Made by a program: the position numbers and the translations under genes | Notes under the pieces: model-generated | Seen by the model: the letters and a program-made list of their open reading frames with translations, nothing else | Database searches by the model: none | What the model was told of the DNA's origin: nothing | Assembly (NCBI GenBank): GCA_014763895.1 | Contig: JACXUM010000028.1 | Coordinates: 1 to 32,993, forward strand | DNA from: Campylobacterales bacterium | GTDB taxonomy: Bacteria > Campylobacterota > Campylobacteria > Campylobacterales > Sulfurovaceae | DNA: 32,993 nucleotides | Direction of reading: 5' to 3' | Shown here: positions 18,510 to 21,677 of the stretch, one piece after another | Position numbering within the stretch: the first letter of the stretch is position 1 | Layout of the letters: each line of letters begins with the position of its first letter

Positions 18510-18538
18510 TGCCTAAATTATAGCCTTTAGGATTGTGT

Positions 18539-19648
18539 ATGTTTGAACTTGAAAATCGTCATGCCGGCAGTGGGTGCAGTGCCCAAATCGTTGTGCTGGT
18601 GCTTTTGCCCTTACTGTTTTTGATCGGCCTTGTACTGGGATATCTGGGAATGATACCATTAAAAGTGGAGATACATACGCTTCTCATCGTATCGTTCATC
18701 TTTGTTACATTCGTGCTCTTTGCTCGGCATAATGCCAATTATGCCGTGTGTCATATGAAAGGGTCTTTTGTTGCAATGGAACAGGCATTGCAGAGTGCCT
18801 TGCGTGCGAATGCATTGACCATTATGGATAAGACCAAATCGACGCTGAACGTCAGAGAGTTTATAGCCGAATATTATAAAGATATCCGCAATGACAACTT
18901 TGCACGTGTTGCCCCTACGGTATTTCCAATGCTTGGGATATTGGGGACCTTTATTGCGATCGCACTCTCCATGCCTGATTTTACCGTAAAGGATCTTGAT
19001 GCGCTGGACCGTGAGATTTCCATACTGCTTTCAGGAATCGGAACGGCATTTTATGCATCCATTTACGGGATCATGCTTTCGCTGGTATGGATCTATTTTG
19101 AAAAGCGCGGAAATGCCAAGGCTGATAAGACGATCCGTGGTCTTGAAAAAATCTATAATTCAAAAGTATGGACCAAAAGCGAACTGATCAAACACGAGCA
19201 TATGCAAAGCGAACTCAAAGACCAGCAGATAGTCCAGACACTCAAAGAGACGTTTAACCTTGATTTCATCAAGGAGCTGAATGAACAGTATCTGAAAAAC
19301 TTTACAACAATCATCCATGAAACGACAAACGGTTTCAGCGAACTGACCAAAAATCTCCAATATGCAGCGACAGATCTTAGAATGACGCTTGATAAGGTTC
19401 AGAACCGTCAGGAGAGTATCAATGCCGTTTCGATGATTCAAGCCAATATCGAAGGTTTCAATATGAACGCCCAGGAACTTCAAAAAGCGATGGAACGTTT
19501 TGACGGGACAGTGGACCACACGTTTGACAAGATCGACAGCGAGATCGCTCGGATCGTAGAAAAACTGGGAGATTTTGCGGGTATCATTGCTGAGCAGAAC
19601 AATGCAATACTAAAAAATATCAATAAAGAGAATAGGGAAACAAAATAG
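18539..19648 (+). CDS. MotA/TolQ/ExbB-type proton channel subunit (ZorA-like)
   Basis: From the ATG at 18539 (TAGGA six bases upstream) the product has 369 residues. Membrane segments lie at about 17-38, 46-62, 124-147 and 166-186. The last two show the conserved proton-channel pattern APTVFPMLGILGTFIAIAL and LLSGIGTAFYASIYGIMLSLVW of MotA/TolQ/ExbB proteins. Residues about 195-369 are a long helical, coiled-coil-like cytoplasmic tail. The stop overlaps the GTG start of a MotB/OmpA partner by one base. It should form the ring around two copies of that partner and use ion flow to move it. The pair recalls ZorA/ZorB of the Zorya defence system, but the tail is shorter and no ZorC/D/E is seen. 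Confidence 0.88.
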   Translation: MFELENRHAGSGCSAQIVVLVLLPLLFLIGLVLGYLGMIPLKVEIHTLLIVSFIFVTFVLFARHNANYAVCHMKGSFVAMEQALQSALRANALTIMDKTKSTLNVREFIAEYYKDIRNDNFARVAPTVFPMLGILGTFIAIALSMPDFTVKDLDALDREISILLSGIGTAFYASIYGIMLSLVWIYFEKRGNAKADKTIRGLEKIYNSKVWTKSELIKHEHMQSELKDQQIVQTLKETFNLDFIKELNEQYLKNFTTIIHETTNGFSELTKNLQYAATDLRMTLDKVQNRQESINAVSMIQANIEGFNMNAQELQKAMERFDGTVDHTFDKIDSEIARIVEKLGDFAGIIAEQNNAILKNINKENRETK

Positions 19649-20718
19649 TGTTCAGGGGTAAAAGTACCGACGAAGGAAGCAATTTCTGGATATCGTATGC
19701 AGACTTGATGGCAGGTTTGCTATTTGTGTTTATCCTGTTGATTGGAGCCATCGTTTCTAAATCGATCATTTTGAAGACGGATCTTCATAAAAAGGAAGAT
19801 ACGCTAGCCAAGATGTCACAAACCCTCAAGAAGAAAGAGTATTCTCTTGTCAGTTTAAATGAAATGCTTAGCAAAAAACAGCAAGAGCTGAAGCTCAGGG
19901 CCGACGAGATCAAAAAACTCAATCAAATGTTATTGGAGGCCAATACCCAAAAAGACCTTTTGAGCAATAAGATCGTTATCGTTCAGAATCTGCTTAAAGA
20001 AAGCAATGAAACGGTACATCAACAAACCAAAAAGATTGAGGAATACGAAGGCAAAGTGCTGGTGCTTTCCAATGAATTGACCGAAGCGAACAATACCGTC
20101 AAACTTAAAGATGAAAAACTTCTCGAACTCCTCAATGCACTGGATGAGAAACAGACCAAATATGATGAACTTGTGGCCAACCTGCAGGCGCAAAAAGCCA
20201 AGATCAAAGCACTTACGGGTATCAAGCTCAAGGTGATCGCTGCATTGAAAGAACAACTCGGAGACAAGATCAATATTGATAAAGAAAGCGGTTCACTACG
20301 GCTTGCATCTAGCATCTTATTTGATAAAGGCAGCAGTGAACTCAAAGAGGAATCCAAAGCCAATCTGAAAAAGGCGTTCGAAGAGTATATCGGTGCACTT
20401 GTCAGTAATTCACAGATTAAACCCTATCTTGACAGGATCATCATCGAGGGCCATACTGATAGTGACGGAGGGTACCTGTACAATTTGGATCTTTCACAAA
20501 AACGTGCCTTGGCTGTGATGAACTTTTTACTTACACTTGATATTGCAAAGCAGGAAAATCTCAAGCCCCTTTTGATTGCGTCCGGACGTGCCTATTTGGA
20601 TGCCATCAATGTAAATGGGGTGGAAGACAAAGAAGCTTCAAGACGTATCGAGATCAAATTCGGACTGAAAAACGAGGATGCAATGCATGAGATAGAAGAG
20701 GTGCTGGATGCGCAGTGA
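19648..20718 (+). CDS. MotB/OmpA-type stator subunit with long coiled coil (ZorB-like)
   Basis: This 356-residue protein starts at GTG, which shares a base with the upstream stop. A short cytoplasmic N-terminus leads into one membrane helix (14-38, SYADLMAGLLFVFILL) with the MotB-type aspartate at D19 as probable proton site. Residues about 45-205 are a continuous charged coiled coil. Residues 217-345 are an OmpA-like peptidoglycan-binding domain (SILFDKGSSEL, GHTDSDG at 268-274, LSQKRA at 282-287). The very long coil between membrane and wall anchor is unusual, because in MotB and ZorB the linker is short. This could be a tall periplasmic strut. The end overlaps the next small ORF by 11 bases. 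Confidence 0.88.
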   Translation: MFRGKSTDEGSNFWISYADLMAGLLFVFILLIGAIVSKSIILKTDLHKKEDTLAKMSQTLKKKEYSLVSLNEMLSKKQQELKLRADEIKKLNQMLLEANTQKDLLSNKIVIVQNLLKESNETVHQQTKKIEEYEGKVLVLSNELTEANNTVKLKDEKLLELLNALDEKQTKYDELVANLQAQKAKIKALTGIKLKVIAALKEQLGDKINIDKESGSLRLASSILFDKGSSELKEESKANLKKAFEEYIGALVSNSQIKPYLDRIIIEGHTDSDGGYLYNLDLSQKRALAVMNFLLTLDIAKQENLKPLLIASGRAYLDAINVNGVEDKEASRRIEIKFGLKNEDAMHEIEEVLDAQ

Positions 20719-20923
20719 TTTTGAACCTAAATCCCTCAAACGAGCCAATGAAATCCTCTCTCAGCATCTTAAGGTTGCGCAGATGTCCTTAGATGATACG
20801 AAACAAAAATTAAAATTAACTCAAAATAAGCCAAAACCTACCTTGTGGCAGAGTTTGAAAAGGTATGGGAGTATTTGCCGTAATTTAGGGTGCTATCCAT
20901 TTGAAGTCTCATATTGGTTTTGA
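20708..20923 (+). CDS. Third ORF of the motor operon, probably 3'-truncated
   Basis: This 71-codon frame begins 11 bases inside the OmpA-type gene. Residues 1 to about 45 (MRSDFEPKSLKRANEILSQH, then a Lys-rich helix) look like the start of a real helical protein. From roughly residue 48 on it runs over DNA that is, on the other strand, the mltG gene, and its composition changes (CRNLGCYPFEVSYWF). The natural 3' part was therefore probably lost in a rearrangement at about 20840-20861. The original length and function are unknown. Confidence 0.45.
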   Translation: MRSDFEPKSLKRANEILSQHLKVAQMSLDDTKQKLKLTQNKPKPTLWQSLKRYGSICRNLGCYPFEVSYWF

Positions 20924-21590
20924 GTCTGTTTTGAATGACTGAAGAGATTGCAGGCATTTCGCTTATATTATTGCTCTCTTTTTGTATGATGGAAGCGATG
21001 ATGCGTATTTCCTGTATCCTCGAAGCATTGGCATCTCTTAGATAAGTGTTTTAAAATCTTTCAAATGTTTCTTTAGAACGTTCAAAGAGATATTCCATCG
21101 TTGCTTTTTCATCGGCACTTCTTGCGAGCGTATAATGGTTTGCGATGATATCCCCTTCTTTGAACTGTGCATAGTTGTCATAGTAGCGCATCAGTTTCAC
21201 GGGATCAAGCTTCATATCGTTTGCAAGCCTTTCAATGAGAGCCTCCTTGCTTTCGCCTGCAAAGATCACAACCTGCATGGTAGGGGCTTTCTGACGATAA
21301 AGAAATTCAAAGAAGGTCAAACGGCCGTGTTTCTCGGGTTCAACGCGGTACCATCCTTTGGTGGGAACACGAATGAGTTTGAGCATAGCAGAATCGATCC
21401 AGGTCACATCATAGCCATTTTTTTGCAGCGTTTTTTTAACTGTTTTAAAATCTGAGGAAGGGATATAAAACGTGGTAGCACCATGTATGGGAATAAAGTG
21501 ATAGATGATGCCCAAAAGCAACAATCCTGCAAAAATCTCCACGTAGATTACAAAACGGCGATACTTATGGGAAATAATCTGTTTCATCAT
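20862..21590 (-). pseudogene. mltG: Broken mltG (endolytic murein transglycosylase): in-frame stop plus lost 3' end
   Basis: The N-terminal half reads normally from ATG at about 21588-21590: a membrane anchor (VIYVEIFAGLLLLGIIYHFI) and the LysM-like/YceG region with VVIFAGESKEALIERLA. A TAA stands at 21051-21053. Reading on in the same frame gives NTYLRDANASRIQEIRIIAS, IIQKESNN with the catalytic Glu, EMPAISSVIQNRL and LQMDSTLNYGKYSHT, which are clear MltG motifs. Homology ends at about 20862, where roughly 80 expected C-terminal residues are missing and the DNA becomes the 3' end of the motor operon's third ORF. The product up to the stop lacks the catalytic residue. MltG normally cleaves nascent peptidoglycan at the inner membrane, so another copy or another enzyme should do this here. 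Confidence 0.82.
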
Positions 21591-21620
21591 TGATGATCTA
21601 TACCTTTTTTCATAGGGTTG

Positions 21621-21626
21621 ATTATA
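21621..21626 (-). promoter_or_regulatory. Extended -10 of the mltG remnant
   Basis: The minus strand reads TATGCTATAAT, identical to the extended -10 before 2322. This indicates that the remnant still has a promoter. TATAAT occupies 21621-21626. Confidence 0.5.
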
Positions 21627-21677
21627 GCATATTTGCATATCAGGCTTGTCTTTCTGTCATTTTGTCATACTTTGGGT

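Follow-up and report, generated by a model that had tools for sequence, protein, structure and literature searches.

A ZorAB-like gene pair of Campylobacterota with a long, heptad-stepped rod in its wall-anchoring subunit

The Zorya motor is known as a defence device. What, then, might a ZorAB-like pair do when no effector stands beside it? The question is raised by two adjacent genes, here called A and B, in a 32,993-nucleotide stretch of DNA (the window) that belongs to contig C5. The genome, 1.77 Mb in size and near-complete, has Sulfurovum (Campylobacterota) as its nearest named relatives. A preliminary description, made from the letters alone, had seen in the two genes a ZorAB-like motor pair with the long coil placed in the wall-anchoring subunit, and had offered two readings: an undescribed envelope motor or a Zorya relative that lost its effectors. 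We examined the pair by profile searches, structure models, a tree of the ring subunit, and a survey of related loci (Table 1).

Table 1. Features of the A-B locus and its downstream neighbours (window coordinates).
Feature	Position	Strand	Basis
A: MotA/TolQ/ExbB-type ring subunit, ZorA superfamily, 369 aa from ATG	18539..19648	+	Pfam, ZorA models, relatives, tree, structure model
PF01618 pore domain of A, residues 95-204	18815..19144	+	Pfam match, conserved columns
Helical tail of A	19259..19642	+	helices 243-291 and 297-370 in low-confidence AlphaFold model
B: MotB/ZorB-like wall-anchoring subunit, 356 aa, GTG start	19648..20718	+	OmpA match, ZorB model, alignment
Codon of B Asp19, pore Asp in SYADLMAGLLF	19702..19704	+	invariant alignment column
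Periplasmic coiled-coil rod of B (probable), about residues 40-190	19765..20217	+	continuous helix, heptad periodicity, heptad-step length changes
OmpA-type peptidoglycan-binding domain of B (Pfam residues 224-302)	20317..20667	+	Pfam, fold matches, conserved residues
ORF3: small basic protein; conserved part 20708-20863, last ~19 codons non-homologous here	20708..20923	+	relatives, pN/pS, junction
Remnant of convergent mltG (YceG)	20868..21638	-	YceG homology 20868-21455 with one stop

The two subunits in relation to known ion-driven motors

The start of A is backed by relatives, the earliest possible alternative being a TTG at 18533. The protein matches PF01618 at 3e-8 and ZorA models down to 8.5e-18, and in the alignment of relatives its pore domain carries GILGTF and GIGTAFYASIYG motifs along with the conserved Thr of the polar ring. 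An AlphaFold model of modest confidence (pLDDT 71) consists of several long helices and a helical tail, which is shorter than the tail of Zorya ZorA and, if the membrane side is taken from ZorA, would be cytoplasmic. B is coupled to A, its GTG overlapping the A stop by 1 nt. It matches OmpA at 1.2e-12 and the ZorB model PDLC00609 at 1.3e-56, while ExbD/TolR models gave no match at E up to 1. Because PDLC00609 scores annotated ZorB2 (188 bits) and other members of the window's family (191-206 bits) alike, it should be read as a broad model. The single membrane helix of B contains the pore Asp, the counterpart of ZorB D24/D21, and the wall-binding residues are kept as well: R286, R332, and R333 are invariant in the alignment, and H269 and D273 nearly so. 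AlphaFold models B as one continuous helix from residue 12 to 190 followed by an OmpA fold (pLDDT 81). The Pfam matches and both models agree with the preliminary assignment of A as MotA/TolQ-like with a helical tail and of B as MotB/OmpA-like.

Both proteins fall well short of curated family cut-offs. In NCBIfam, A reached at most 55 bits against a cut-off of 500 (NF033917) and B reached 73 against 400 (NF041788); the match of B to NF006543 (PRK09039) scored 61 bits against 305, even though it was full-length. The best sequence matches among solved structures, as well as the best Foldseek matches, were nonetheless ZorA and ZorB. A second-look aligner placed ZorA (Z about 9) barely ahead of TolQ/ExbB (Z about 8), so fold alone is not decisive for A. 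It also matched A with unrelated helical proteins, which we disregarded as an unspecific likeness among helices.

A tree of the A pore core (70 sequences, 121 columns, several long branches) also placed the ring subunit. One branch (100/97) unites Zorya I, Zorya II, a Helicobacteraceae-type ZorA-like group, the partner of PRK09039, and the window's family, and it stands apart from TolQ/ExbB and from the phylum's MotA. Within it, the window's family is its own clade of 34 sequences (100/98), outside the ZorA I and II clades, with the order inside the ZorA branch unsettled; the placement of two divergent MotA-type sequences, both with long branches, is unsure. The phylogeny proposed as a check on the preliminary description has thus tied A to ZorA while also setting its family off as a separate lineage. 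Together with the model scores, solved structures, and fold matches, it bears out the view of a ZorAB-like pair.

Compared with known systems, the pair most resembles the Zorya ZorA5ZorB2 motor (types I and II; PDB 8qyd, 8vvn, 8vvi), with which it shares homologous ring and axle subunits, the pore Asp, and the Ser/Thr ring; the OmpA-type wall domain, dimer-forming in ZorB, has its key residues in common with that of B. It differs from Zorya in lacking adjoining ZorC, ZorD, or ZorE, in its conserved chromosomal distribution, in forming its own clade, and in missing the cut-offs. With MotAB/PomAB it shares the general motor plan, a pore Asp in B, and an OmpA-type wall domain; however, A lacks MotA_N (PF20560) and lies apart from the phylum's MotA in the tree. 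The ring subunit of TolQR/ExbBD belongs to PF01618, as does A, but the window's B is an OmpA-type protein with a long rod rather than a small ExbD/TolR domain, and the tree keeps the two separate. A 2025 survey of MotAB relatives described a large diversity of non-flagellar relatives, with Zorya more distant still (PMC12505986).

A rod that changes length in heptad steps

The most distinctive part of B is its linker. From the pore Asp to the EGHTD motif, the window's B spans 248 residues and its family spans 210-395 (median 269). By contrast, the same span measures 104-115 residues in annotated ZorB and in Zorya-like homologues on plasmids, and within the phylum two B subunits of Zorya-like type have 130-137, making the B linker about twice the ZorB linker or more. 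Hydrophobic periodicity in the window's B peaks at 102.5 degrees, the heptad value, a peak reached by none of 1,000 shuffles, and one heptad position of the rod is 95% hydrophobic. Across the family, the peak lies at 102-104 degrees in 104 of 105 B linkers. The continuous helix and the heptad peak uphold the placement of the long coil in the wall-anchoring subunit, and the preliminary estimate of about 160 residues was right.

The lengths of B are themselves informative. Modulo 7, 87 of 105 distinct B proteins share the window's length class. To allow for relatedness, we took 52 disjoint nearest B pairs, 33 of which differ in length; the difference is a multiple of 7 in 24 of these 33 (about 5 expected; P about 5e-14). 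The next commonest class was 7n+4 (4/33), matching what an 11-residue step would give. By contrast, under the same pairing treatment the A tail differed by multiples of 7 in only 1 of 25 pairs, with no heptad signal, and the idea of the A tail as a second heptad-quantised rod was dropped on that count. The change of the B linker in heptad steps is what is new here. Set against the A tail, it is strong sequence-level evidence that the linker is an in-register coiled coil. Most simply read, the linker would be a two-stranded, parallel coiled coil whose register is kept from membrane to wall domain, over about 22 nm in the window's protein. Shorter A tails also accompany longer B rods across 102 loci (Spearman -0.36, a figure that ignores relatedness).

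Long-coil B subunits occur outside the window's family too, in the PRK09039 pairs, so the long rod is not unique to it. These two-gene pairs of alphaproteobacteria such as Shinella combine PRK09039 with a MotA/TolQ/ExbB-like partner, and in Shinella 247 residues separate the pore Asp from the GHTD motif. The partner A falls in the same superclade as the window's A, yet the two are only 24% identical. To our knowledge, the function of this "peptidoglycan-binding protein" pair has not been described.

Distribution, gene neighbourhood, and the third gene

We surveyed 298 Campylobacteria genomes of at least 90% completeness with the A alignment, admitting matches up to 1e-20. A match was present in 147 of them, one per genome and always at E <= 2e-66. 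The pair is chromosomal and spread across several families: in the window's own family, 17 of the 20 genomes sampled have it, and it also occurs in families f6, f8, f10, f16, and f19. It was absent from all listed genomes of family f13, members of which have a ZorA-like pair of another kind. Roughly half of the class does without the window's pair, and so it is not universally needed. In six f8 genomes (G218, G303, G158, G265, G137, and G323), the A matches have one or two stops inside, reflecting either an interruption or an overrun past the stop of A. The pair is tandemly duplicated in genome G011 (locus L040, 4266-8359), where the leading copy of B measures just 199 aa.

The upstream neighbours differ among lineages. 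A DUF2201 (metallopeptidase/VWA) gene often lies upstream in Sulfurovum-type genomes, and genes for a PPIC-type PPIase and a class II fructose-bisphosphate aldolase precede the pair in the f10 genomes examined. We take Cj0596-Cj0599 of Campylobacter jejuni to follow that order, in which case the pair would presumably be Cj0598/Cj0599. Among the papers searched, one lists cj0598 as of unknown function and another names Cj0599 as a major outer membrane protein, and the main text of an essential-genome paper names neither gene. Our literature search, which left most subscription journals outside, found no functional study of the window's family or of housekeeping ZorAB homologues. The preliminary description would have been undone by a firm grouping with a known housekeeping family, present in all relatives and lacking a third gene; what emerged was a housekeeping-like distribution, no described function in the literature searched, and a small third gene in one lineage.

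No ZorC, ZorD, or ZorE gene stands beside the pair in the window or its relatives, and a genome-wide search for ZorE returned no match in the window's genome. The earlier remark that no effector is left therefore holds for the neighbourhood, and for ZorE in the genome. Two Campylobacter-like f10 genomes (G125 and G163) carry a window-type pair and, elsewhere, a complete Zorya II system of ZorA, ZorB, and ZorE (loci L207, 6303-9230, and L208, 7759-10579), with ZorE scoring 324-349 bits.

Several other Zorya-like loci came up in the class. Helicobacteraceae-like genomes contain a different ZorA-like pair (L047, 4806-8224; L209, 7046-10560; L206, 6543-9337; L210, 6899-9578), in which A is very long (644-920 aa) and B short (236-250 aa). 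This pair groups with Zorya II in the tree, and no ZorE was called adjacent in the cases tested. At L047, a PPIC-type PPIase gene comes after the pair, whereas in f10 it precedes the window-family pair. At L205 (5802-10796), a Zorya-like A (440 aa) and B (250 aa) are followed by four small ORFs and a dynamin/LeoA-like GTPase, with no ZorE; this locus is possibly a Zorya-like system with another effector.

The third gene had been described as cut, and this needs revision: only its last few codons are replaced, and in relatives it is a small conserved ORF of 46-72 aa rather than a large gene. Its ATG sits 11 nt upstream of the end of B. An ATG ORF of 46-72 codons is found at the B stop in 67 of 72 loci (the window and the L080-L159 set), with the 11-nt offset kept in 59, which supplies the intact third gene that had been sought in relatives; it is absent from the f10 loci examined. 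With a pN/pS of 0.38 over codons outside the B overlap (17 disjoint pairs), ORF3 is under purifying selection. Its products are basic, with a median net charge of +6, and usually carry an F-x-P-type motif early in the sequence and close with an aromatic C-terminus. As ORF3 is small wherever present, a truncated large effector was ruled out.

The altered end of ORF3 follows from a deletion. In the closest relatives (L080-L082), A, B, and ORF3 are followed by a convergent full-length mltG (344-346 aa), whereas the window retains a 195-aa ORF. Homology to mltG starts at 20868, where homology to ORF3 stops (about 20863). As read from this junction, one deletion at ~20864-20868 swapped the last codons of ORF3 and took off one end of mltG. 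Contig C7 has another copy of mltG, which is intact. In L080-L082, a site-2-protease-like gene lies between mltG and the next gene; it is missing from the window.

A motor for the envelope rather than for defence?

Zorya defence needs the ZorB Asp, the wall-binding residues, and the ZorA tail (PMC11890865). Because residues needed there are kept here, the conserved pore Asp, Thr, and wall-binding residues suggest a working motor rather than a relic. We think it likely, with some reserve, that the two proteins assemble into an ion-driven 5:2 motor belonging to the ZorAB superfamily, and that Campylobacterota employ it as a housekeeping machine of the envelope and not in Zorya defence. Of the two original readings, the undescribed envelope motor is the better one.

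The other original reading, a degenerate or minimal Zorya whose effectors were lost or are encoded elsewhere, draws on ZorA and ZorB being the nearest families by HMM, solved structures, and tree. We consider it improbable. The pair is chromosomal and conserved across families in a single copy per genome; its clade is separate from Zorya I/II; it occurs alongside full Zorya II in two genomes; it misses every curated cut-off; and a search of the window's genome for ZorE found none. The pair is thus probably not a defence motor stripped of effectors. It is very unlikely indeed that it is a flagellar, Tol, or Ton energiser paralogue, that is, a stator or a substitute for TolQ/ExbB. The superfamily fold is the same and TolQ/ExbB come close behind ZorA in the second-look list, but the tree sets A apart from TolQ/ExbB and the phylum's MotA, B carries an OmpA domain and is recognised by no ExbD/TolR model, and the genome has separate TolQ and ExbB genes and no MotA_N gene. 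The last point rules out flagellar use in the window's genome.

An alternative that would also account for the rod is a non-rotating tether or strain sensor, in which the B dimer senses wall distance or tension via the rod and gates ions, or signals through the A tail, without mechanical work. A long in-register rod ending in a wall-binding domain would suit this role, and wall binding has been proposed to open the channel in Zorya (PMC11890865). However, the conserved pore Asp and polar ring favour ion-driven motion, even if a gated channel would need both, and we regard the sensor as unlikely.

If the pair is an ion-driven motor, five A subunits would form a ring round two B helices, and ion flow past the B Asp would make the A ring, tail included, rotate against a B dimer held by the wall. 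The rod, about 22 nm here and roughly 16-44 nm across the family, would hold the wall-binding domain off the membrane, so that the motor would be held by, or pull on, peptidoglycan well above it. In Sulfurovum-type bacteria, the co-translated small basic ORF3 protein would be a likely partner, perhaps of the A tail. More tentatively, and with doubts that outweigh our confidence, the family could be an unrecognised housekeeping branch of ZorAB whose lever arm is no longer the cytoplasmic A tail but the heptad-quantised periplasmic rod of B. The rod might then fix how far from the inner membrane the wall is engaged, and this branch might show the role of the Zorya motor before or besides phage defence.

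These results carry a warning for genome annotation, as a defence-finding ZorB model scores B strongly (1e-56) though B is probably no defence gene. The evolution of the rod in heptad steps is sequence-level evidence for a coiled coil that keeps its register even as its length varies freely, and it makes "ruler or lever" ideas directly testable. If a non-defence relative of the Zorya motor is truly conserved in Campylobacter-type bacteria, this would open the question of what task such a motor performs in normal cells.
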